DNA of 64,000 nt, from contig NZ_CP014796.1 of NCBI RefSeq assembly GCF_001969385.1, positions 1,443,501 to 1,507,500 of the forward strand. The letters run 5' to 3'. A model generated the notes under the pieces. The model was given only the letters and a program-made list of their open reading frames with translations, made no database searches and had not been told where the DNA came from. This DNA comes from Salipiger profundus. GTDB lineage: Bacteria > Pseudomonadota > Alphaproteobacteria > Rhodobacterales > Rhodobacteraceae. The translations under genes were made by a program, and so were the position numbers. Shown here piece by piece: positions 45,264-64,000 of the stretch (the stretch's first letter is position 1; each line of letters starts with the position of its first letter).

Positions 45264-48200
45264 GTGGCGCGGAAAGCCGTCCATACTCGCAAGGGGGCGT
45301 CTGGGACAGGGAGACCAGATTTGATCGGACGACTTTGCCGTGCGGCGGTGCTTGCTGCCTGTGTGCCTCTTGCCGCCCTTGCTGCCCCCCGTGACGAGGC
45401 CGATGTCTACGTGTTCGGCAACAGCCTCGTGAATCACATTGGCGAACAGGCCCATTCCAACGTGCCGCACTGGATGGCCGAGATGGCCCGTGCCGACGGG
45501 CGTGGCTTTACCCTGGATGGGCAGTTCGGGTTCCTGCGCAACTTCGTGCAGGATCTGCCGCCGCGGCCCGGCTGGTCGTTCCCGGGCGTCGACAGCCTCT
45601 GGGATCCGGGGCGGGGGCCCTTTGCCGAGGCGGGCTACGACGCGGTGCTCGTGACGCCCGCCAACTTCATCCAGTACCAGCCGCCGGACCGGCCCTACGA
45701 CGGCGACAACCCCGGCAAGGAAAGCCCGCTCGGGGCCACCGCCACGCTGGTCGAGTGGCTGCACACGCGCGCTCCGGGAACGCCGGTCTACATCTACGAG
45801 GGCTGGGCCGAGATGGCCGGGGTGGCGCGCGGCTTCCCGCCGTCGCGGCGGGGCCTGCGCCGATACCACGCTTTCAACACCGGCGATTACCACGACTGGT
45901 ACGAGACCCTGCGCGACGACCTGCGCGCGGAGCAGCCCGAGGCCGACGTGCGCCTGATCCCGGTGGCGCGCATCCTTGGCGTCCTGCTGGGCCGGGGCGG
46001 TCCGCTCGAGGACATGCCGGCCGAGGCGCTCTACGTCGATGACGCTCCGCACGGAACGCCGTCGCTCTACTTTCTCGCGGCGATGATAACCTATGCCGCG
46101 ATCTACGAGGCGCCGCCGCCCGCAGGATACGAGCCGCCGGAGAGCCTCCACCCCGACGTCGTGGCGGCCTATCCGGCGCTGGCCTCCGCGATCTGGGACG
46201 CAGTCTCCGGCGCGGGGATATTCGAGGAAGCCGCCGCCCGGCCTTCGGCGCCGGACGATACCCGGACCGCCGAGGCCGACGCTGCGGACGACGCGGCGCC
46301 TGCCGCCGAAGATCCCCTGCCACCGCGCGGCCGGGTGGCACTGCCCGAGGGTGGGGCGCGACCGGAGGGGCTGCCGGCGCTGGCGATGAACATCAACGGC
46401 ATCTCGGACTGGTCGACGCAGCATCCCTTCATCGACCGCATGAAGAGCGCCCGGCAGTGGGTGGGCCACCTGCCGGGGCAGTGGGGCGGCGTCACCATCG
46501 AGGAATTGCGGGCGGAGGGCGTGCTCGACCCGGACGGCTGGCCGCTGCGCATCCCCGAGCGGGTCGAGCGGCTGGAATCGCTGCTGCTGACCGACCAGCC
46601 CGAGGAGGCGACGCATCTGCGCGGCACCTACATCGTGACCTGGAAGGGCGAGGGCGATCTGAAGCTCACCGGCCGCGCGCAGCGTGTGCGCTACGGCGAT
46701 CACGAGGCCGAGTTCGACTACAGCCCCGGCGAGGGCGCGGTGGGCATCGCGCTCGGGGCGACCGATCCCGACGATCCGATCCGCGACATCCACGTCATCC
46801 GCGAGGACCAGCGCGATCTCCACGAGGCCGGGGTGATCTTCAACCCGGCGTGGATCGAGACCGTGCACGACCTGCGCAGCATCCGTTTCATGGACTGGAT
46901 GGTGACCAACGGCTCTCCGGTGCAAGGCTGGGACGACCGTCCGCGCACGTCGGATTTCAGCTACACCTCCTGGGGCGTTCCGCTCGAGGTGATGCTGGCG
47001 CTTGCCAACCAGATCGGTGTCGACCCGTGGTTCACCATGCCGCACCAGGCCGACGACGCCTACATCCGCCGCTTCGCCGAGGCGGTGCGCGACGGGCTCG
47101 ACCCCCGGCTGAAGGCCCATGTCGAGTATTCCAACGAGGTCTGGAACTTCATCTTTCCGCAGGCGGAATGGGCGCAGGCGCAGGCCGATGCGCTCTGGGG
47201 CCGGTCCGAGGCCGGCTGGATGCAATACTACGGCCTGCGGGCGGCGCAGGTGATGACGATCTGGAGCGACGTCTTCGGTGACGAGGTCGCCGACCGGCTG
47301 GTGCGCGTCGTGGCGACCCACACCGGCTGGCCGGGGCTCGAAGAGAACATCCTCGTGGCGCCTCTGGCCTACCTGCAGCTCGGATACGCCCCGGCCGAGG
47401 TCTTCGACGCCTACGCGGTGACCGGCTACTTCGGCTACGAGATGGGCGGCGAGGAGATGGCGCCGCAGATGGACGACTGGCTCGAACGGTCCGAGGCGCA
47501 GGCCCGCGCCGAGGGCGAGCGGCAGGGGCTGCGCCGCGTCGCGCTGCGCGAATACGTCCGCGCGCACCGTTACGAGGCGGCGGTGGCGCCGGTCGCCCTG
47601 GCGCTGCTCGAGGGCTCGCTGCGCGAGCTCACCGACGAGATCTTTCCCTACCAGGCGGCGGTGGCCGAGGCCTCGGACCTGCGGCTGGTGATGTACGAGG
47701 GCGGCACGCATCTGACCGCGCAGCTGCCGCGCGTGAATGACGAGCGGCTCACGGGGTTCTTCGAGTATTTCAACTACACGCCGGAAATGGCCAAGCTCTA
47801 CGAGACGCTGCTGACCGGCTACGTCGCCGCCGGGGGCACGCTGTTCAACGGCTTCGTCGACGTGGCGCAGCCGTCGAAATGGGGCAGCTGGGGCGCGCTG
47901 CGCCACCTGCAGGACGACAACCCGCGCTGGGACATGCTGGCGAACTACAACGCCACCGGCCCCTCGGACTGGGCGCCGCGCGACCCCGAGGCCTTTGCCG
48001 ACGGCGTGCTGACACGGGGCGGCGGCGGCGGCGAGACGTTGCAGGGCACCGCGCAGGAAGACATCCTGCTGGGCGGCGGCGGCAACGACGTGCTGGTCTC
48101 GGGTGGTGGCGACGACCATCTGCACGGCGGTGCGGGCACCGACCGCGCGGTTCTGCCCGGGCACCGGACCGACTACGTGTTTTCGCACGAGGACGGACGG

Positions 48201-48302
48201 CTGGTGGCCGACGGTCCGGCGGGGCGGGTGCTGCTGTTCTCGGTCGAGCGGCTGGGATTTGCAGGGGCCCCCGGCGACGACATCGCGACGGCGGGGCTCT
48301 AG
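45264..48302 (+). CDS. Exported multidomain protein: SGNH-like, GH-A-like and RTX repeats
   Basis: The 1012-residue protein has an N-terminal signal-like segment (LCRAAVLAACVPLAALAAP). It then resembles an SGNH hydrolase: the motif FGNSLVNH puts a serine at residue 54, and DDAPHG gives Asp260/His263 as a DxxH block. A low-complexity linker follows near residues 310-370. The second domain has HVEYSNEVWNF, an Asn-Glu pair (Glu625) as in clan GH-A, and LVMYEGGTHL (Glu812), a candidate nucleophile. The C-terminus has RTX-type glycine repeats around residues 930-960 (GGGGNDVLVSGGGDD), which suggest calcium binding and type I secretion. GTG at 45264 follows GAGGGG; TTG at 45321 with AGGGAGA is an alternative. 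Confidence 0.75.
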   Translation: MARKAVHTRKGASGTGRPDLIGRLCRAAVLAACVPLAALAAPRDEADVYVFGNSLVNHIGEQAHSNVPHWMAEMARADGRGFTLDGQFGFLRNFVQDLPPRPGWSFPGVDSLWDPGRGPFAEAGYDAVLVTPANFIQYQPPDRPYDGDNPGKESPLGATATLVEWLHTRAPGTPVYIYEGWAEMAGVARGFPPSRRGLRRYHAFNTGDYHDWYETLRDDLRAEQPEADVRLIPVARILGVLLGRGGPLEDMPAEALYVDDAPHGTPSLYFLAAMITYAAIYEAPPPAGYEPPESLHPDVVAAYPALASAIWDAVSGAGIFEEAAARPSAPDDTRTAEADAADDAAPAAEDPLPPRGRVALPEGGARPEGLPALAMNINGISDWSTQHPFIDRMKSARQWVGHLPGQWGGVTIEELRAEGVLDPDGWPLRIPERVERLESLLLTDQPEEATHLRGTYIVTWKGEGDLKLTGRAQRVRYGDHEAEFDYSPGEGAVGIALGATDPDDPIRDIHVIREDQRDLHEAGVIFNPAWIETVHDLRSIRFMDWMVTNGSPVQGWDDRPRTSDFSYTSWGVPLEVMLALANQIGVDPWFTMPHQADDAYIRRFAEAVRDGLDPRLKAHVEYSNEVWNFIFPQAEWAQAQADALWGRSEAGWMQYYGLRAAQVMTIWSDVFGDEVADRLVRVVATHTGWPGLEENILVAPLAYLQLGYAPAEVFDAYAVTGYFGYEMGGEEMAPQMDDWLERSEAQARAEGERQGLRRVALREYVRAHRYEAAVAPVALALLEGSLRELTDEIFPYQAAVAEASDLRLVMYEGGTHLTAQLPRVNDERLTGFFEYFNYTPEMAKLYETLLTGYVAAGGTLFNGFVDVAQPSKWGSWGALRHLQDDNPRWDMLANYNATGPSDWAPRDPEAFADGVLTRGGGGGETLQGTAQEDILLGGGGNDVLVSGGGDDHLHGGAGTDRAVLPGHRTDYVFSHEDGRLVADGPAGRVLLFSVERLGFAGAPGDDIATAGL

Positions 48303-48303
48303 C

Positions 48304-49518
48304 TCAACCGTTGTCCCGCGTCGCGAGGATTTCCGACACCAGCGTCTCGGCCCCGAGGCTCGCGCGGAAGCGGGTCTCGACCTGAATGCGCCCGGCATCG
48401 CTGAAGCGCTGGGCGCTGTCGGGGTTCTGTGCGAGATCGCGGATCGCACGGGCCAGCGCGGTCGGGTCCTTCGGCGGGACGAGCTTGCCGTTGTGGCCGT
48501 CGTCGATCAGCTCGCGCACCCCGCCCGCGTCGGTGCCGATCACCGGCACGCCGCAGGCCATCGCCTCCATGTAGGCCACGCCCAGGGGTTCATGCCACGA
48601 GGCGAGCACGAAGACATGCGCATCGAGCAGCTTTTGCTTTACCGCGCCCGCGTCGATGGCGCCCAGCAGCTTCACGTGGTCCTGCAGTCGCAGCTTGCGC
48701 AGGTGCGCCTCGAGGTCCTTGCGGAAGCCCTCGCCTCCGGCGTCGTCCTCGCCGGCGATCTCGAGCCGCACGTCGACCCCCTGGTCGAGCAGCTGCCGCA
48801 TCGCCGACATCAGGTCCTGGTGGCCCTTCACCACGTTGAGCCGGCCGCAGCTGAAGAGCCTGAGCGGCCGCCCCTTCTCGGGCGGCTGGTAGGGCGCGTC
48901 GCGGCGCAGCTCGTCGGTGTCGACGCCCATGGGGCGGACCACCAGCCGCGGCGGCAGGTCGTCGGGCATCGCCTCCTGCATCTCGTTCAGCAGCTTGTGG
49001 GTGATGATCGTGGCAAAGGCGGCGTGGCGCCACTTGAAGCGCTGGCCCGGCCCGTAGTCCGACAGCGGGCCATGCAGCGTGAGCGAGTAGGTCGGTCCAC
49101 CCATCTGCCGCGCCAGCGCCGCGATCAGCGCCGCGCGGGCGCAGGAATGCACGTGCACGTGGTCGAGCCCGCGCTCGCGCGCCAGCGTCACGAGCGCGCG
49201 CGCGGCAGAGAGCGTCACGGCGACGTCCTTCGCGAAGCCCGGCCCCTCGCGCAGGATGGCGCGGGGCAGCCCGCGCGGCAGCAGCGCCCATAGTGCCTGC
49301 AGCGCGGCGACGGGCTCGACTTGACCGAGGTAGGTGGTCCGCGCGATCGCGTCCTGAGACCAGTCGTGCGAAATCAGCCCGGAGTGCGGCATCCGGGTCG
49401 ACAGGAGATGCACCTCGTGCCCCATCGACTCGAGCACCTGCACCTCGCGCCAGAAGAAGATATGTGTCTGCCCCGGAAACTGGGGCACAAGATACCCGAT
49501 CCGCAATTTCTGCGACAC
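48304..49518 (-). CDS. Glycosyltransferase family 4
   Basis: The 404-residue GT-B enzyme has the N-terminal acceptor fold beginning LRIGYLVPQFPGQTHIFFWREVQVLESMGHEVHLLSTR. The C-terminal nucleotide-sugar domain includes PLRLFSCGRLNVVKGHQDLMSAM and FVLASWHEPLGVAYMEAMACGVPVIGTDAGGVREL, which is the family's EX7E motif. It is encoded convergently with the RTX protein (two stops almost touching) and divergently from the GT2-flippase genes. Sugar donor and acceptor are unknown. Confidence 0.9.
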   Translation of the reverse strand: MSQKLRIGYLVPQFPGQTHIFFWREVQVLESMGHEVHLLSTRMPHSGLISHDWSQDAIARTTYLGQVEPVAALQALWALLPRGLPRAILREGPGFAKDVAVTLSAARALVTLARERGLDHVHVHSCARAALIAALARQMGGPTYSLTLHGPLSDYGPGQRFKWRHAAFATIITHKLLNEMQEAMPDDLPPRLVVRPMGVDTDELRRDAPYQPPEKGRPLRLFSCGRLNVVKGHQDLMSAMRQLLDQGVDVRLEIAGEDDAGGEGFRKDLEAHLRKLRLQDHVKLLGAIDAGAVKQKLLDAHVFVLASWHEPLGVAYMEAMACGVPVIGTDAGGVRELIDDGHNGKLVPPKDPTALARAIRDLAQNPDSAQRFSDAGRIQVETRFRASLGAETLVSEILATRDNG

Positions 49519-49668
49519 GCGTCCCCCCGGATTTCAGGATTCCCGGGCGATCTGTCCGGGATTTGTGACAACTTCCATGTGATTTCTTTTTTTGGCCACA
49601 GTTTGCTGTCAGGTCATCGGCGAGCGGGAGAGGAAAATCGTCCATGTGTGGCGGCTATGGTACGGATC

Positions 49669-50526
49669 ATGTCGGCTGAGCACCAAACGGCCGGGATGCC
49701 TGCGGTGTCGGTCGTCCTTCCGGCGAGCAACGAGGCATCCCTGATCGGGCCCTGCCTGCGCGCGCTCTGCGCGTCGCGCCTGCCGGGGGTTCTGCGGGCC
49801 GAGGTCATCGTCGTCGCAAACGGCTGCCGGGACGACACCGCCGATCGGGCCCGCGCCGAGATACCCACATTCGAGGCGCGCGGCTGGGACGTGCGGGTGA
49901 TCGAGCAGGCCCATGGCAACAAGCTCGCCGCGCTCAACGCCGGAGACGCGGTCGCGCGGCACGATCTTCGGGTCTATCTCGACGCCGACGTCACCGTGAG
50001 CCCCGATCTTCTTGCCCAGCTGGTCGACGTGCTTGAACGTCCCGGCCCCCGCTACGCCAGCGGACGGGTGGTGATCACCGCCCGCAGCGTCCTGTCACGG
50101 GCCTATGCGCGATTCTGGCAAACGGTGCCGTTCATGCGGCAGGGCGTGCCCGGCTGCGGCCTCTTCGCGGTCAACGGCGAGGGTCGGGCCCGCTGGGGGA
50201 GGTTTCCCGAGATCATCTCGGACGATACCTTCGTCCGCCTGAGTTTTGCTCCCGGCGAGCGCGCGGGCGTTGCCGCAACATATGACTGGCCCATCGCCGA
50301 GGGCTTCGGCAATCTCGTGCGCGTGAGGCGGCGGCAGAACGCCGGGGTCGCCGAGATCGAACAGAGGTATCCCGAACTGCTCGCCAACGACGACAAGCCG
50401 ACCCCGACCCGGGGCGAGACCCTGGCGATGGCGCTGCGCGATCCACCGGGCTTTGCGGTCTACGCGGCGGTTGCGCTCGCGGTGAAGCTGCGCCCGCAGG
50501 CGGCGGAGTGGAGTCGCGGTCGATGA
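49669..50526 (+). CDS. Glycosyltransferase family 2
   Basis: The 285-residue GT-A enzyme starts MSAEHQTAGMPAVSVVLPASNEASLIGPCLRAL. The donor-binding VIVVANGCRDDTAD is followed by the metal-binding DADV pair in RVYLDADVTVSP. GCGLFAVNGEGRARWG and IISDDTFVRLSF correspond to later GT2 motifs. Internal starts at 49657 and 49669 are both possible; the latter gives a standard opening. The C-terminus has a short hydrophobic helix (FAVYAAVALAVKLR), so it may be membrane associated. Its stop overlaps the flippase ATG (ATGA). Confidence 0.87.
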   Translation: MSAEHQTAGMPAVSVVLPASNEASLIGPCLRALCASRLPGVLRAEVIVVANGCRDDTADRARAEIPTFEARGWDVRVIEQAHGNKLAALNAGDAVARHDLRVYLDADVTVSPDLLAQLVDVLERPGPRYASGRVVITARSVLSRAYARFWQTVPFMRQGVPGCGLFAVNGEGRARWGRFPEIISDDTFVRLSFAPGERAGVAATYDWPIAEGFGNLVRVRRRQNAGVAEIEQRYPELLANDDKPTPTRGETLAMALRDPPGFAVYAAVALAVKLRPQAAEWSRGR

Positions 50527-51887
50527 GCCAGGCCATCCTCACCCGGTTCCGGGGCGCGTCTCTCTCGGCCCGCGCGGTGCGCTCGTCGCTGCTGACGGTG
50601 GGCGGCTTCGGTTTCGGGCAGGCGATAAGGCTTGCGTCGAACCTCATTCTGACGCGGCTGCTCTTCCCCGAAGCCTTTGGCCTCATGGCGCTGGTGTCGG
50701 TCTTCATGATGGGGCTTCAGCAGTTCTCGGACGTGGGGGTGACGCCGGCGATCCTGCAGAGCCGCCGTGGCGATGACCGCGATTTCCTCAACACGGCGTG
50801 GACGATACAGGTTCTGCGCGGGGCAGGGCTGTGGCTCGCGGGATGCGCGCTGGCGTGGCCCATGTCGCTGTTCTACGACGAGCCGCAGCTACTGCACATC
50901 CTGCCGGTGGCAAGCCTCGCGCTGCTGATCGTCGGGTTCAAGCCGACCCGGATGGACACCGCCAACCGGCACCTCCTGCTCGGGCGCGTCACGCTTCTCG
51001 ACGTCATCACCCAGACCAGCGGCGTCCTCGGGGCCATCGTGCTCGCGTGGTGGACCGGGTCGGTCTGGGCGCTGGTGATCAGCGGTCTCATCGCGAGCGC
51101 GGTCGAGGTCATCATCAACTGGCTCTTCCTGCCGGGTGAGCATAACCGCTTCCGCTGGGAGCCTGCCGCGGCGCAGGAGCTCATCACCTTCGGCAAGTGG
51201 ATCTTCCTGTCGACGGTCTGCGGGTTCTTCTTCAGCCAGAGCGACAAGATCCTGATGGGGAAATATCTCACGCTCGACGTGCTGGGGATCTACAACATCG
51301 GCTATTTCCTCGCCGCCTTCCCGATGCTGCTCGGGGGGATGGTGACGCGCCGTATCCTGATCCCGATCTACCGCGAGACGCCGCCGACCGAAAGCCGCGA
51401 GAACTTCCAGCGGTTGCGCAAGATGCGGTGCGTGGTGACCGGTGCGCTGATAGGACTCGTCGGCGTCTTCGCGATCACCGGGCACTGGCTGGTCGATCTG
51501 CTCTACGATGACCGCTACGTCGCCGCCGGCGCGGTGACGGTCATCATCGCCTGCGTGCAGATGCCCCAGATCATCGTGCAGACCTACGACCAGGCGGCGC
51601 TTGCGGCGGGCGACAGCCGGACGTTCTTCGTGCTGGCGCTCGCGCGGGCGGTGCTGATGGTGGTCTGCCTTCTGGCCGGGCTCGAGATCGCAGGGTTCCT
51701 CGGCGCGCTGCTCGGCATCGGCGCCGCCTACCTGCTGGCCTACCCGGTGGTCGTCTGGCTGGCGCGCCGCATGGGGGCATGGGATCCGCTGCACGATGCG
51801 GTCTTCACGTTGGCCGCCGGGGGATTCGCCGCGCTGGCGGTGGCCCTGAACTGGCCGCACATCGTGGCGCTGGCTGCCTTGGGTTGA
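50523..51887 (+). CDS. Wzx-like oligosaccharide flippase
   Basis: The 454-residue protein is a polysaccharide biosynthesis/MATE-type integral membrane protein with about twelve hydrophobic segments. The opening LLTVGGFGFGQAIRLASNLILTRLLFPEAFGLMALVSVF and the mid-region SQSDKILMGKYLTLDVLGIYNIGYFLAAFPMLL are typical Wzx signatures. It should move a lipid-linked saccharide across the inner membrane. The start at 50523 overlaps the GT2 stop, coupling the two. Its placement beside glycosyltransferases and the PKS suggests that the cluster product or a sugar precursor is exported. Confidence 0.88.
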   Translation: MSQAILTRFRGASLSARAVRSSLLTVGGFGFGQAIRLASNLILTRLLFPEAFGLMALVSVFMMGLQQFSDVGVTPAILQSRRGDDRDFLNTAWTIQVLRGAGLWLAGCALAWPMSLFYDEPQLLHILPVASLALLIVGFKPTRMDTANRHLLLGRVTLLDVITQTSGVLGAIVLAWWTGSVWALVISGLIASAVEVIINWLFLPGEHNRFRWEPAAAQELITFGKWIFLSTVCGFFFSQSDKILMGKYLTLDVLGIYNIGYFLAAFPMLLGGMVTRRILIPIYRETPPTESRENFQRLRKMRCVVTGALIGLVGVFAITGHWLVDLLYDDRYVAAGAVTVIIACVQMPQIIVQTYDQAALAAGDSRTFFVLALARAVLMVVCLLAGLEIAGFLGALLGIGAAYLLAYPVVVWLARRMGAWDPLHDAVFTLAAGGFAALAVALNWPHIVALAALG

Positions 51888-58537: not shown

Positions 58538-59554
58538 ATGGGACCGAAGCTGCTGGTCATATCGCTGAACTACCGGACGGCCGCCATGACCCTGCGCTCG
58601 GTCCGCGCCGCGCTGCGCGAGATGCAGGGGCTCAACGCCGAACTGATCGTGGTGGACAACGACAGCGGCGACGGCTCCTTCGAGACGATGCAGGCAGCGC
58701 TTGCCGCGGAGCCCTGGGCACGGGGCGCGCCGGTGCGGCTGATCCAGGCGGGGCGCAACGGCGGCTTCGGCGCCGGCAACAACGTCGGAATCCGGGCCGG
58801 CTGGTCCGACGGCAGCCGCCCCGATTACGTCTACATCCTGAATTCCGACGCCTTTCCCGACCCCGGGGCGCTGTCGGCGCTTCTGGATCACCTTGAAAGC
58901 CATCCGGCCACGGGCTTCGCCGGCAGCTACATCCACGGCGAGGACGGCACACCGCACCTCACCGCCTTCCGCTTCCCCTCGGTCTGGTCCGAGTTCGAGG
59001 GCGCGGCGCGTTTCGGGCCGTTCTCGCGGATGCTGAAGCGCAAGATCGTGCCCATCGGCATTCCGCAGACCCGCGAGCGGGTCGACTGGCTTGCCGGGGC
59101 GTCGATGATGATGCGGCAGAGCGTGCTCGACGAGATCGGGCTCTTCGACGAGACCTTCTTTCTCTACTTCGAGGAAACCGACCTTTGCCTGCGCGCGGCG
59201 CGGGCCGGACACGAGGTGCATTACATCCGCGACAGCGAGGTCACGCACATCGGCTCGGTCTCGACGGGGATGAAGACCTGGGCGCGCGTGCCGGGCTTCT
59301 GGCTCGACAGCCGCTGGCATTATTTCACCAAGAGCCACGGTCGCGCCTATGCGGCCATGGCGACCCTCGCGCATGTGGCGGGCGGGCTGACGTGGCGGCT
59401 GCGCCGGCTGGTGCAGCGCAAGCCTCCGGCCGATCCGCCGCGCTTCCTGCGCGATTTGTTGTTTCACGATCTCAAGGCGCTGCTTCGGCCCCTGCCGGCG
59501 CAACGCGAGGCGCGCTCCGGGCACACCGGCGCGCTCGGGACCCAAGCGGAGTAA
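58538..59554 (+). CDS. Glycosyltransferase family 2 within the PKS-NRPS operon
   Basis: The 338-residue enzyme is of the dTDP-rhamnosyltransferase-like GT2 branch. It begins LLVISLNYRTAAMTLRSVRAALREM. ELIVVDNDSGDGSFETM and NGGFGAGNNVGI bind the donor, and YILNSDAFPD supplies the metal-binding D-x-D-like site. DWLAGASMMMRQSVLDEIGLFDETFFLYFEETDLCLRA is the conserved acceptor-side block. It starts 5 bases after the PKS stop and ends 5 bases before the NRPS start, so it is likely part of the pathway, probably adding a deoxysugar to the product or a precursor. Confidence 0.88.
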   Translation: MGPKLLVISLNYRTAAMTLRSVRAALREMQGLNAELIVVDNDSGDGSFETMQAALAAEPWARGAPVRLIQAGRNGGFGAGNNVGIRAGWSDGSRPDYVYILNSDAFPDPGALSALLDHLESHPATGFAGSYIHGEDGTPHLTAFRFPSVWSEFEGAARFGPFSRMLKRKIVPIGIPQTRERVDWLAGASMMMRQSVLDEIGLFDETFFLYFEETDLCLRAARAGHEVHYIRDSEVTHIGSVSTGMKTWARVPGFWLDSRWHYFTKSHGRAYAAMATLAHVAGGLTWRLRRLVQRKPPADPPRFLRDLLFHDLKALLRPLPAQREARSGHTGALGTQAE

Positions 59555-59559
59555 TCAGG

Positions 59560-62500
59560 ATGGCGCAGTTTTCCAGCGTGGTGATCGGCAATGAATCCCT
59601 GCTCGTGCAGTGCAGCGAGAAGCTGCTCGCGGCGGGCCACGCCATCCGGGCGGTGGTGACCCGAAACCCCGACATCGCGGCATGGGCCGAGGGCCGCGCG
59701 TTGCCGGTCGTGGCGCCGGGCGCGGGGCTTTCGGCACGGCTCGCGCCGATGGGCGGCTTTGACTGGCTGCTGTCGATCTCGAACCTCGACATGATCCAGC
59801 GCGACGTGCTCGCAATGCCCGCGCAGGGCGCGGTCAACTTCCACGACGGCCCGCTGCCCCGGCACGCCGGGCTCAACGCCCCGGTTTGGGCGCTGATCGA
59901 GGGCGAAAGCCGCCACGGCATCACCTGGCACATGATCGAAGGCGGTGTCGACGAGGGCGACATCCTTGTCACGCGCGGGTTCGACATTGCCGCGACCGAT
60001 ACCGCGCTGACGCTCAACACCAAGGCCTACGAGGCCGCCATCGACAGCTTCGGAGACCTGCTCGACCAACTCGAACACGGGCTGCGCCGCGTGCCGCAGG
60101 ACCTGTCGCAGCGCAGCTATCACGCACTGGCCGACCGTCCCTCGGCGCATGGTCTGCTTGATTTCACCCGGCCGGCGCATGAGCTCGCGCGGCTGGTGCG
60201 GGCGCTTGACCATGGAGGCTATGCCAACCCGCTCTCCGCGCCGAAGCTGCGCGCGCACGGCAGGCTCTGGCTTGTCGGCAGCGCAAGGGCGGTGGAGGGC
60301 GCCGGCACGCCCGGCGCGGTGGTCGAGGCGACCGACGACCATCTCACCGTGGCCTGCGGCGAGGGCGCGCTGAAAATGGCGCATTTCACCCATCTCTGCG
60401 GCGCGCTGGCGCTGGTGGCGCAGGTCGGCAAGCCCGGTGACGTGCTCGATGTGCCCTCGGTCGAGGAACGCGCCGCCATCTCCGCGCGTGTCGCCGAGGT
60501 CGCGCCCCACGAGCGCCACTGGCGCGCACGGCACGCCGATCTCGCGCCGGTCGAGCTTCAGGGCCTCGGCAAAGGCGGCGGTGCGCTGGTCTCGCGGCCG
60601 CTTGTGCTGGGCGAGGCCGTCGCGCCGGAAGCCCTTGTCGCCGCATGGGCGGCGCGGCTTGATGGGCATGACCTCTGCGATATCGCCTGTGCCGACGCCG
60701 CGCTCGCGGACCTCTCCGGCGGTGGGTTCATCGCGCCCTGGGTGCCGCTGCGCATAGACGCCGGGGGCAGCCTCGGCGGGCTGGCCGAGGCGCTGGAGAC
60801 CGCGCTGAACGAGACCCGCAAGCGCAAGGGCTTCCTGACGGACCTGCCCGCCCGCGATCCCGACCTGAGCGGCCCGCCGCAGGTGCCGCATATCGGGCTC
60901 AGCTTCGGCGCGGGGCACATCCCCGGCACCGCCGTCACGGTCGAGCTGACCGACGGCATGGCCACGTTTCACACCGACACCGGGCGGATGCCGCCGGCGC
61001 AGGCCGAGCTGCTCGCCGCGCGCCTGGAACTGCTGGCCCGCGAGGCCGATGCCGGAGCAACGGTCGCCGCGCTGCCGGTGCTGCCCGAGGCCGAGCGCGA
61101 CATGGTTCTCAATCGATGGAACGCCACCGGGCAGGCGCATGACTGTGGCCTCACCATGCAGGCGGCCTTCGAGGCGCAGGCGGCCAGGACGCCGGAGGCC
61201 ATCGCGCTGGTCTTCGAGGACCGCGCGCTGACCTATGCCCAGCTCGACGCGCGTGCCAACCAGGTGGCGCATGTGCTGCGCGGCATGGGGGTGACGGCGG
61301 GCACGGTCGTCGGGCTGCACACCCGTCGCTCGGTCGACCTGATGGTGGCGGCGCTGGGGATCCTCAAGGCCGGAGGCGCCTACCTGCCGCTCGACCCGGC
61401 CTACCCGGCGGACCGGCTGAGGCACTACATCGCCGACAGCGGCGCGCCGGTGATCGTGACTCAGGCGGCGCTGCAGGGCGAACTGCCGCCGCACGAGGCC
61501 GCGCTTCTGGTCATCGACGCCGATCCGCGTCTTGCGCAGGCGTCCACGACGGTGCCCGAAGCGGCCAGCAACCCCGACGATCTTGCCTACCTGATCTACA
61601 CCAGCGGTTCGACCGGCACCCCCAAGGGGGTGATGATCGAGCATCGCAACGTGCTGAACTTCTACCTCGGCATGGATGCCGTGGTGCCGCACGATCCGCC
61701 GGGCATCTGGCTTGCCGTGACCAGTCTCAGCTTCGACATCTCGGTGCTTGAGCTGTTCTACACGACCGCGCGCGGCTTCAAGGTGGTGCTGACCTCGGAC
61801 GAGGATCGCGGCCTGATCTCGAAGGGGCCGATGCCGCTGTCGGATCACGGCATGGAGTTCTCGATCTACTACTGGGGCAACGATGACGGCACCGGACGCG
61901 ACAAGTATGCCATGCTGCTCGAAGGCGCGAAATTCGCCGACGCCAACGGCTTCTCGGCGGTCTGGACGCCCGAGCGGCACTTCCATGCCTTCGGCGGCCC
62001 CTACCCGAACCCCTCGGTGACCGGCGCCGCCGTCGCCGCCGTGACCCGCAACATCGGCGTGCGGTCGGGCTCGGTGGTGGCGCCGCTGCATCATCCGGCG
62101 CGCATCGCCGAGGAATGGGCGGTGATCGACAACCTGACCAACGGTCGCGCGGGGCTTGCCATCGCAAGCGGCTGGCAGCCCGACGACTTCGTATTGCGCC
62201 CCGAGAACACGCCGCCGGACAACAAGCCGGCCATGCTCGAGAGCATCGACCAGCTGCGCAGGCTCTGGCGCGGCGAGGCAGTGGCGTTTCCGCGCAAGGA
62301 CGGCAGCCTGTTCGACGTGGTGACGCAGCCGCGCCCGGTGTCCGCGGAGCTGCCGGTCTGGGTGACGACCGCGGGCAACCCCGAAACGTGGAAGGAGGCT
62401 GGGCGGCTCGGCTGCAACGTGCTGACGCACCTGCTGGGCCAGTCCATCGACGAGGTCGCCGAGAAGATCCGCCTGTATCATGCCGCGCTGCGCGAGGCGG

Positions 62501-64000
62501 GGCATGACCCGGCCGAGTTCAGCGTCTCGCTGATGCTGCACACCTACATCGCCGACAGCCGCGACGCGGCTCGCGAGACGGCGCGCGGTCCGATGCGCGA
62601 GTATCTCCGCTCGGCGGCGGGGCTCATCAAGCAGTATGCCTGGAGCTTTCCGGCCTTCAAGCGACCCAAGGGGCTCAACAACCCGTTCGAGCTGGATCTC
62701 GAGATCCTCACCGACGACGACCTCGAGGCGATCCTCGACTTCGCCTTCGAGCGGTATTTCAACGAAAGCGGCCTGTTCGGCACGGTCGAGGACGCGCTTC
62801 AGCGGACCGAGCAGCTCAAGCGCATCGGCGTGACCGAGATCGCCTGCCTGATCGACTACGGCATACCGCGCGAGCAGGTGCTCGACGGGCTGAGACCGCT
62901 GGCGCAGGTGGTGAAGCAGGCCAATGTCGCGCCGGAACTGGCGGAAGACGATTTCTCGATCGCGGCGCAGATCCTGCGGCACGGCGTGACGCACATGCAG
63001 TGCACCCCGTCGATGGCCCGGATGATCGCCATGAACGACGAGGCCCGCTACGCGCTTTCCAAGGTGCAGCAGCTGTTCCTTGGCGGTGAGCCGCTGCCCG
63101 GATCGCTGGTCGAGGAATTCGGCCGGATCACCGAGGCGCGCGTCACCAACATGTATGGCCCCACCGAGACGACGATCTGGTCCTCGACCGAAGCGGCCTC
63201 GGCCGCCGAGGGCATCGTCAACATCGGTACACCGCTCGCAAACCAGCAGCTCTACGTGCTCGACGACGCGCAGCAGCCGGTGGGCGTGGGCCAGCCGGGC
63301 GAGCTCTGGATCGGCGGCGAAGGCGTGACCCGCGGCTACTGGGGCCGCGCTGACCTGACCGCCGAGCGCTTCGTTCCGAACCCGTTCCACGGCGGGCGGA
63401 TGTATCGCACCGGCGATCTCGTGCGGCGGCGGATCGACGGCCGGATCGACTTCATCGGCCGCGTCGACCACCAGGTGAAGCTGCGCGGCTTCCGCATCGA
63501 GCTGGGTGAGATCGAGGCGGTGATGGAGGCGCAGCCGGGCATCACGCAGGCCGTCGTCGCCGCGCGCGAGGACCAGCCGGGCGACATCCGGCTCGTCGGC
63601 TACTACACCTCGGATGCGCCGCTGAACGAGGCCGACCTCAAGGCGGCGATGGGCGCGGATCTGCCCGGCTTCATGGTGCCGACGCACATGATGCGGCTCG
63701 ACAGTTTCCCGCTGACGCCGAACAAGAAGGTCGACCGCAAGGCGTTGCCGAAGCCGGTGGCACGGACGGTGTCCGCGCCGAAACCGGCGGTGGCCGCGCC
63801 CGCGCTCGCGCCGGTCAGGCCGGCAGTCCCGCAGGGGCAGGGCGACGCGAAGCTGCAGGCGCAGATCGCCGAGATCTGGTCAACGGTGCTGGGCGTCTCC
63901 GAGATCGCCGGGCGCGACAGTTTCTTCGACCTCGGCGGGCACTCGCTGCTGGCGGTGCAGGCGCACCGGTCGATCCGTGACGAGCTGGGTGCGCGAGGAC
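59560..64000 (+). CDS. Nonribosomal peptide synthetase: formyltransferase, A domain split by luciferase-like monooxygenase, carrier (partial)
   Basis: The frame runs 1480 codons from ATG 59560 without a stop and leaves the window. The N-terminus (about residues 1-170) is a formyltransferase with Asn93, His95 (NFHDGPLPRHAG) and Asp131 (VDEGDIL), spaced as in Fmt. A formyltransferase C-like region follows to about 295. Residues 300-545 resemble part of a condensation domain but have no HHxxxDG. The adenylation domain has A3 YTSGSTGTPKG (about 680) and A4 FDISVLELF. A luciferase-like flavin monooxygenase occupies about 765-1115 (MupA/Atu3671-type). A5 NMYGPTE, A7 YRTGDL and A10 NKKVDRKALP then resume. 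The carrier serine is 1462 in LGGHSL. The architecture points to an initiation module that formylates and oxidises a bound amino acid. Confidence 0.9.
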   Translation, partial: MAQFSSVVIGNESLLVQCSEKLLAAGHAIRAVVTRNPDIAAWAEGRALPVVAPGAGLSARLAPMGGFDWLLSISNLDMIQRDVLAMPAQGAVNFHDGPLPRHAGLNAPVWALIEGESRHGITWHMIEGGVDEGDILVTRGFDIAATDTALTLNTKAYEAAIDSFGDLLDQLEHGLRRVPQDLSQRSYHALADRPSAHGLLDFTRPAHELARLVRALDHGGYANPLSAPKLRAHGRLWLVGSARAVEGAGTPGAVVEATDDHLTVACGEGALKMAHFTHLCGALALVAQVGKPGDVLDVPSVEERAAISARVAEVAPHERHWRARHADLAPVELQGLGKGGGALVSRPLVLGEAVAPEALVAAWAARLDGHDLCDIACADAALADLSGGGFIAPWVPLRIDAGGSLGGLAEALETALNETRKRKGFLTDLPARDPDLSGPPQVPHIGLSFGAGHIPGTAVTVELTDGMATFHTDTGRMPPAQAELLAARLELLAREADAGATVAALPVLPEAERDMVLNRWNATGQAHDCGLTMQAAFEAQAARTPEAIALVFEDRALTYAQLDARANQVAHVLRGMGVTAGTVVGLHTRRSVDLMVAALGILKAGGAYLPLDPAYPADRLRHYIADSGAPVIVTQAALQGELPPHEAALLVIDADPRLAQASTTVPEAASNPDDLAYLIYTSGSTGTPKGVMIEHRNVLNFYLGMDAVVPHDPPGIWLAVTSLSFDISVLELFYTTARGFKVVLTSDEDRGLISKGPMPLSDHGMEFSIYYWGNDDGTGRDKYAMLLEGAKFADANGFSAVWTPERHFHAFGGPYPNPSVTGAAVAAVTRNIGVRSGSVVAPLHHPARIAEEWAVIDNLTNGRAGLAIASGWQPDDFVLRPENTPPDNKPAMLESIDQLRRLWRGEAVAFPRKDGSLFDVVTQPRPVSAELPVWVTTAGNPETWKEAGRLGCNVLTHLLGQSIDEVAEKIRLYHAALREAGHDPAEFSVSLMLHTYIADSRDAARETARGPMREYLRSAAGLIKQYAWSFPAFKRPKGLNNPFELDLEILTDDDLEAILDFAFERYFNESGLFGTVEDALQRTEQLKRIGVTEIACLIDYGIPREQVLDGLRPLAQVVKQANVAPELAEDDFSIAAQILRHGVTHMQCTPSMARMIAMNDEARYALSKVQQLFLGGEPLPGSLVEEFGRITEARVTNMYGPTETTIWSSTEAASAAEGIVNIGTPLANQQLYVLDDAQQPVGVGQPGELWIGGEGVTRGYWGRADLTAERFVPNPFHGGRMYRTGDLVRRRIDGRIDFIGRVDHQVKLRGFRIELGEIEAVMEAQPGITQAVVAAREDQPGDIRLVGYYTSDAPLNEADLKAAMGADLPGFMVPTHMMRLDSFPLTPNKKVDRKALPKPVARTVSAPKPAVAAPALAPVRPAVPQGQGDAKLQAQIAEIWSTVLGVSEIAGRDSFFDLGGHSLLAVQAHRSIRDELGARG

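Follow-up and report, generated by a model that had tools for sequence, protein, structure and literature searches.

A formyltransferase-led, glycine-type NRPS module interrupted by a luciferase-like monooxygenase and paired with a polyketide synthase in polysaccharide loci of Salipiger profundus and other Rhodobacteraceae

Among the closest described counterparts of the module reported here is LgrA of the linear gramicidin system, where a formyltransferase (FT) domain is likewise fused in front of an adenylation (A) and a carrier (T) domain, and no active condensation (C) domain is present. LgrA is not known to carry a monooxygenase insert, and it feeds a C domain. A monooxygenase lying within a glycine A domain, at the place between motifs A4 and A5, is described for MtaG and MelG of the myxothiazol and melithiazol systems (passages of PMC10204066 and, for the glycine A domain, of PMC11342130), and some corallorazine-like clusters also have a monooxygenase in a glycine A domain (passages of PMC11342130). 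The window analysed here, a stretch of 64,000 nt from the 5.4 Mb genome of Salipiger profundus (contig 1, NZ_CP014796.1, bases 1443501–1507500), encodes a single-module nonribosomal peptide synthetase (NRPS) with the order formyltransferase, putative C-domain remnant, A domain split by a monooxygenase, carrier and stop. With moderate confidence, we read it as the loading module of a two-protein line, formed with a polyketide synthase (PKS), in an exopolysaccharide pathway, and the formyl-glycine that it would make would be oxidised at C-alpha.

An initial annotation of this stretch had proposed an initiation module in which the first residue is chosen, formylated and oxidised, with a complete formyltransferase triad (Asn93/His95/Asp131), no active condensation motif, motifs A1–A4, a MupA/Atu3671-type monooxygenase insert, motifs A5–A10 and a carrier, and had compared it to the FT-A-T start of LgrA. 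This architecture was borne out, and the proposed function is supported at the level of sequence; glycine as the residue indicated by the code, the single-module extent and the PKS partner can now be added. The three families it had named were all matched when bases 59560–63999 were compared with Pfam and NCBIfam: Formyl_trans_N at residues 78–158 (54.1 bits against a cut-off of 26.1), AMP-binding in two stretches, and TIGR04020 at residues 767–1117 (481.8 bits against 244.45). Formyl_trans_C was matched at residues 197–273, AMP-binding_C at 1317–1390, and a PP-binding carrier begins at residue 1435. All motifs of the split A domain and the carrier are present and conserved, and the insert sits between A4 and A5. 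The annotation had also expected the remaining NRPS modules past position 64000, and there are none. The frame stops at 64254, and tblastn searches with single domains found no second A domain, insert, formyltransferase or further ketosynthase (KS) in the window and the 34.8 kb downstream of it. Further modules downstream were accordingly rejected; a 4′-phosphopantetheinyl transferase (PPTase) gene, a Wzz gene and polysaccharide genes are found there instead.

Conservation was examined in an alignment of 41 rows, the window's own protein and 40 fetched relatives. Of the triad, N93 is kept in 41/41 rows and H95 and D131 each in 40/41, the sole exception being one of the two copies in genome G168, where both H and D are changed. 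A degenerate formyltransferase was rejected because of this intact triad, and a methionyl-tRNA formyltransferase (FMT) was rejected as well, as Formyl_trans_N genes above the cut-off occur three more times in the genome and the one in the window is fused to A and T domains. The parallel with LgrA holds in that the triad-bearing domain is fused upstream of A-T with no functional C domain. LgrA is also the best sequence match of the module in the PDB, although its formyltransferase matches that of the window weakly (31 bits, chain residues 36–177); compared with LgrA, the window module has in addition a glycine code, the insert, a putative remnant of a C-domain lobe and a PKS partner. Homologues of the module occur in 19 of 19 searched genomes of the same genus (in two pieces in G009, and as far as residue 1421 in G008), so the architecture is not a chance arrangement. 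The nearest named relative is a protein of Salipiger sp. P9, with 84% identity over 96% of the length. Mean identity of the 40 relatives to the window protein is 54% for the formyltransferase, 35% for the linker behind it, 62–65% for the A-domain halves and 61% for the carrier.

The first nine positions of the A-domain code read DILQ[FLMY]G[MF][IV]W in 41/41 rows, while the tenth is variable. Codes of this DILQ type we take to be glycine codes, and the A domain of DhbF, whose structure (5u89) has the same Q, G and IW code positions, is presumably glycine-specific. Judged by the code, the A domain would activate glycine. A second set of A domains with a luciferase-like monooxygenase (LLM) was assembled from related proteins and 16 open reading frames (ORFs) of plasmid loci, 129 domains being aligned, of which 113 came from the protein set. 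A complete nine-letter code could be read in 121/129; Q, G and W were common to 121/121, and DILQxGx[IV]W was seen in 119. Since the proteins of this set are related, the 121 codes represent one family trait and not independent events.

The insert is the best-conserved part of the protein, with a mean identity of 76% over the 40 relatives and 102 invariant positions. Besides the TIGR04020 match, it aligns with the PuwE structure 6ket in sequence (333.7 bits) and in fold (TMt 0.88). By the curated model and the fold, the luciferase-like monooxygenases of TIGR04020, such as PuwE and the palmerolide LLM, belong to the same family; some of these enzymes are free-standing or part of PKS modules, and alpha-hydroxylation has been proposed there (passages of PMC8739492). 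Neither loss of the formyl-transfer residues nor decay of the flavin mononucleotide (FMN) domain was seen, and a degenerate FMN domain was rejected on the strength of its conservation rather than of known cofactor residues. The predicted activity of the insert, modelled on its family, is FMN-dependent oxygenation. An insert that has no activity or a purely structural role, in a module that loads only formyl-glycine, is extremely improbable in view of this conservation; nothing speaks for it directly. A relic of the system in genome G139 that has lost the insert has also lost other active sites.

Between the formyltransferase and the A domain lies a folded linker, which in a predicted model has a pLDDT above 90 across most of its length. 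The active-site motif HHxxxD is absent from all of the linkers (0/41). A hidden Markov model (HMM) of the linker matches the C/A junctions of ordinary modules and, together with alignments of the C/A junction to PDB sequences, is the reason for reading the linker as a remnant of the C-terminal lobe of a C domain; a structural alignment (VIA-align) covered mainly residues 1–298, i.e., little of the linker. Phylogeny of the inserts (IQ-TREE, 75 of 170 insert sequences, midpoint root, bootstrap not settled, and no row of proven function) placed 22 of the 23 FT-linked inserts in one clade (support 97/82) among the inserts of C-containing modules, P0165 being the exception. Taken with the resemblance of the linker to a C lobe, this nesting suggests that an ancestor with the order C-A(monooxygenase)-T had its C domain replaced by formyl transfer, and that formyl-glycine may have taken over the role of peptidyl-glycine. 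MtaG and MelG work on a peptide that a C domain passes on from the modules before them, whereas the window module comes first, and a formyltransferase with a C-lobe-like linker stands in the place of the C domain.

The position of the insert bears on the chemistry of the oxidation. According to passages of PMC10204066, the monooxygenases located between a4 and a5 of glycine A domains in myxothiazol and melithiazol synthesis hydroxylate C-alpha, and solanimycin B, whose flavin-dependent monooxygenase lies between a8 and a9, retains alpha-hydroxyglycine. The corallorazine paper likewise describes C-alpha hydroxylation by a monooxygenase in a glycine A domain (passages of PMC11342130). By analogy with the inserts at the same place, C-alpha oxidation is the better supported first choice over N-hydroxylation.

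Oxidation on nitrogen, with a hydroxamate-like cap, had been raised as a possibility in the initial annotation and is weakened by these precedents. In such a scheme, the monooxygenase would oxidise the amine of glycyl-S-T, the formyltransferase would trap N-formyl-N-hydroxyglycyl, and extension by the PKS would give a retro-hydroxamate, a metal-binding decoration. It is a general property of C4a-hydroperoxyflavin that it readily attacks amines. For necroxime synthesis, conversion of a glycine primer into an oxime has been proposed (passages of PMC7318616), with the help of an oxygenase domain that may or may not belong to TIGR04020. The exopolysaccharide of Salipiger mucosus, a species whose genome encodes a relative of the module (P0013), is reported to contain glucose, mannose, galactose and fucose, 1.9% hexosamine and 6% pyruvic acid. 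It chelates metals, although an acidic polymer alone could account for that; the composition as given in passages of that source (PMC2953402) neither shows nor excludes a group of the proposed kind. The characterised glycine A-domain inserts that were found in print act on C-alpha, however, and the insert groups with those of C-containing modules, where the glycine nitrogen becomes an amide, so we consider N-hydroxylation rather unlikely.

A type I PKS is encoded in the same locus, separated from the NRPS by a GT2 glycosyltransferase gene; its domains are KS, acyltransferase (AT), ketoreductase (KR), dehydratase (DH), acyl carrier protein (ACP) and thioesterase (TE). In 40/40 rows (G186 left out), the active residues of KS (C/H/H), AT (S/H), KR (K/Y/N), DH (H/D), ACP (S) and TE (S/H) are all present; where KR has its Ser, 39 rows show S or T and one shows V. 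The NRPS gene stands directly before the PKS gene in Methylobacterium, Aliiroseovarius, a Deinococcus and G186, and NRPS to PKS was therefore adopted as the working order; in Aliiroseovarius, the PKS continues into A-T-TE.

A basic tail of the pattern [RK][RKMLQ]x[ML]R closes the NRPS in 40/41 rows (exception G186), whereas only 9 matches arose when 8200 stretches of 40 residues were drawn at random from these proteins; the pattern was composed after the tails had been inspected, and a narrower first pattern matched 13/41. Plasmid copies of Ruegeria, Paracoccus and Methylobacterium fit the pattern, while those of Aminobacter, Shinella, Rhizobium and Neorhizobium have tails that are basic and fall outside it. 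The tail may be a docking motif, as far as can be told from its sequence.

The coordinates of the features are collected in Table 1. Other genes around the PKS-GT2-NRPS trio encode a Wzz-type protein, a ParA/CbiA-type ATPase, a WecG-type glycosyltransferase and a short-chain dehydrogenase/reductase. The RTX protein might be exported and either modify the polysaccharide or belong to the matrix.

Table 1. Features of the module and its locus, in window coordinates (features beyond 64000 lie past the window end).
Feature	Position	Strand	Basis or remark
RTX calcium-binding repeat protein, 1012 aa, present in many of the loci/genera	45264..48302	+	Pfam, neighbourhoods
GT4 glycosyltransferase	48304..49518	-	Pfam
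GT2 glycosyltransferase	49321..50526	+	Pfam, neighbourhoods
Wzx-type flippase (Polysacc_synt_3)	50508..51887	+	Pfam, neighbourhoods
Type I PKS, KS-AT-KR-DH-ACP-TE, 2151 aa	52077..58532	+	Pfam, residue alignment
GT2 glycosyltransferase between PKS and NRPS	58538..59554	+	Pfam; 38/40 fetched neighbourhoods
Single-module NRPS, 1564 aa	59560..64000 in window, frame to 64254	+	stop 254 bases past window end
Formyltransferase domain with C-terminal subdomain, residues 1-300	59560..60459	+	triad N93, H95, D131
Linker, residues 301-525, folded, read as C-terminal lobe remnant of C domain	60460..61134	+	HMM, predicted model
A domain, first part, motifs A1-A4, residues 526-764	61135..61851	+	Pfam, conservation
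FMN-dependent luciferase-like monooxygenase insert (predicted), TIGR04020, residues 765-1117, between A4 and A5	61852..62910	+	NCBIfam, structure match
A domain, second part, motifs A5-A10, residues 1118-1405	62911..63774	+	code DILQFGMIWK spans both parts
Carrier (T) domain, DSFFDLGGHSLL	63850..64000, running past window end	+	Pfam, conservation
PPTase behind NRPS	64259-64918		Pfam
MocA oxidoreductase fused to NAD-dependent epimerase, 698 aa	68004-70100 (L005:9005-11101)	-	many of the loci

A survey of the family, covering 198 genomes and in most cases a single one for each genus, with the first 520 residues as query (E ≤ 1e-60), gave 71 matches and placed the module in 69 of the genomes, about one third of the sampled genera. 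Forty of the matches were fetched with their flanks. The order PKS-GT2-NRPS was retained in 38/40 of these neighbourhoods, the exceptions being G186 and the second copy of G168. Of the polysaccharide genes, one of WecG type was found in 37/40, and Wzx or Wzz in 38/40. Across the survey, a WecG-type gene (E ≤ 1e-70) was present in 65/69 genomes with the module against 7/129 without, and the GT2 (E ≤ 1e-100) in 65/69 against 2/129, counts that ignore phylogeny and depend on thresholds set after the gap had been seen. The distance between the genes was examined in the window's genome and in 25 genomes of the fetched set. WecG-family genes number only 33 in these 26, and 25/26 genomes have one no more than 17 kb from the module, where about 1% would be expected by an estimate from the number of WecG-family genes and the size of the genomes; in the exception, G129, the WecG gene is on a different contig. 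Outside the Rhodobacterales, plasmids of Aminobacter and Shinella carry the NRPS gene, a divergently placed PKS gene, a PPTase gene and polysaccharide genes, and on a Deinococcus plasmid a protein with the order A-insert-A-T and a PKS are encoded amid capsule and polysaccharide genes. On a plasmid of Ruegeria conchae (L134:839-5925), the VPLPA-CTERM exosortase XrtD and dTDP-rhamnose genes lie near the trio. As the pair is kept inside a polysaccharide cluster across many genera, it probably makes a chemical decoration of the polysaccharide, judging by gene content and order. Type I PKSs in capsular polysaccharide clusters are also described for Burkholderia and rhizobia (WcbR/RkpA); these are comparable in setting, and no NRPS, formyltransferase or monooxygenase is named with them in passages of PMC3908369.

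The scheme that we infer for the substrate of each step, the order of formylation and oxidation, the single round of extension and the attachment to polysaccharide is as follows. The A domain would activate glycine and load it onto the carrier, primed by the PPTase encoded behind the NRPS. The formyltransferase would then cap the glycine amine with the formyl group of formyl-tetrahydrofolate and, as it occupies the former position of the condensation domain, formyl would substitute for an upstream acyl chain. The FMN monooxygenase would hydroxylate C-alpha of formyl-glycyl-S-T, as described for inserts at the same place in glycine A domains. The resulting carbinolamide might either be retained (N-formyl-alpha-hydroxyglycyl) or be cleaved, with loss of formamide, to leave a glyoxylyl thioester. 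The PKS would add one extender unit, followed by reduction and dehydration, and the TE would release or transfer a short unsaturated acyl unit, whose final place would be a sugar of the polysaccharide or of its lipid-linked precursor. A more specific version can be offered tentatively: formyl would be a minimal acyl group and not a permanent cap, and the embedded monooxygenase would yield an alpha-hydroxyglycyl or glyoxylyl PKS starter for an exopolysaccharide substituent of marine alphaproteobacteria.

Several observations weigh against this scheme. The likeness to MtaG and MelG is one of architecture, code and place, and not of alignment. None of the three linkers tried gave a Pfam C-domain match, no TE match was found in the Deinococcus PKS stretch and, apart from the TE, no acyltransferase for moving the product onto a sugar was identified. 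By structure comparison, the FT fold is equally close to the sugar formyltransferase ArnA and to FMT, and an amino sugar is therefore a possible substrate. Like ArnA, WbkC and QdtF, the formyltransferase might then formylate a nucleotide-bound amino sugar for the polysaccharide, and simply be fused to an NRPS that leaves its glycine unformylated; we judge this very unlikely. In G186 and Aliiroseovarius, the module is accompanied by PKS genes, with none of the sought polysaccharide genes within 18 kb in the former and no polysaccharide gene annotated within 15 kb in the latter, so the module itself is not bound to polysaccharide.

These two clusters, the TE domain and the position of the GT2 between both synthases would also fit a free, secreted metabolite, diffusible and glycosylated by the GT2, with the polysaccharide genes as mere neighbours. 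Such a product is unlikely given the conserved locus order, the WecG-type gene in 65/69 genomes with the module, the capsule or polysaccharide genes beside the Aminobacter, Shinella and Deinococcus copies, and the absence of a dedicated small-molecule exporter from the subset of ORFs run against Pfam. A polysaccharide decoration built on oxidised formyl-glycine remains the preferred reading.

Variant copies of the system were also seen. G168 has two copies (contigs C6 and C47; L120–L123); that on C6 has F and S at the His and Asp columns of the formyltransferase, and that on C47, with its triad intact, lacks a GT2 between NRPS and PKS. The relic in G139 (L150:8190-18512, minus strand) derives from the complete system and keeps its locus order. 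Inspected by eye, it has lost the FT triad, the carrier Ser, the KS Cys, the AT Ser and the KR Tyr, the monooxygenase is absent, and it keeps the A-domain motifs, the TE motifs, the basic tail and an open NRPS-like frame of 1108 aa. A separate formyltransferase frame lies beside an A-insert-A-T protein on plasmids of Paracoccus marcusii (L135:15755-20346) and Deinococcus (L142:7086-12409). In the former, it is annotated as formyltransferase, and the split may be a frameshift, other Paracoccus records having the FT in one gene; in the latter, it is annotated as hypothetical and lies just upstream, with 34% identity. When the Deinococcus protein served as seed of a contig search, 18 loci were obtained, and neither the insert nor the FT was matched in any of them. 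Three NRPSs of 2653–3075 aa (P0161, P0165 and P0185, the last named as from a gammaproteobacterium) start with an FT and an A(LLM) module and also contain condensation domains; to go by their sequences, the same starter may be used in other assembly lines. Rhizobial plasmids often have formyltransferase matches (Bradyrhizobium 20, Rhizobium 15 and Sinorhizobium 12 of 75 records; Mycetohabitans 4), and many of the plasmid matches fall in genes with an NRPS annotation.

A syntenic NRPS-like/type I PKS hybrid cluster, predicted by antiSMASH, has been reported in Rhodoalgimonas, Marimonas, Lentibacter and Aquicoccus (passages of PMC10608839). It is probably the same cluster as that of the window, since Aquicoccus porphyridii (P0093) and a Marimonas (P0090) encode relatives of the module. 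PMC10608839 gives no product or role for the cluster; neither formyl nor luciferase is mentioned in its text, and polysaccharide appears in its reference list only. In Phaeobacter inhibens, a PKS (Inhi_1972) and an NRPS (Inhi_1974) are one locus number apart (passages of PMC4062626) and, by this numbering, could be part of the same trio. Tritonibacter mobilis has type I PKS and NRPS-like clusters that are described as unlike any known (passages of PMC11225332). Among the papers listed in searches of open-licence literature, no title or abstract described a formyltransferase-monooxygenase module, or an NRPS-PKS tied to a Rhodobacteraceae polysaccharide. The system is thus made of known parts in a combination and setting for which no explanation was found in print.

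By its sequence, the protein would join two uncommon features, formylation and the oxidation of glycine by an enzyme embedded in the A domain, in one compact module. Assembly-line enzymes are usually taken to produce small molecules that are set free. In the present case, a complete starter and extender pair is tied to polysaccharide genes, in 69/198 genomes of the family and again in Aminobacter, Shinella and Deinococcus, and this association predicts that bacterial exopolysaccharide may carry an unrecognised group derived from NRPS and PKS chemistry.

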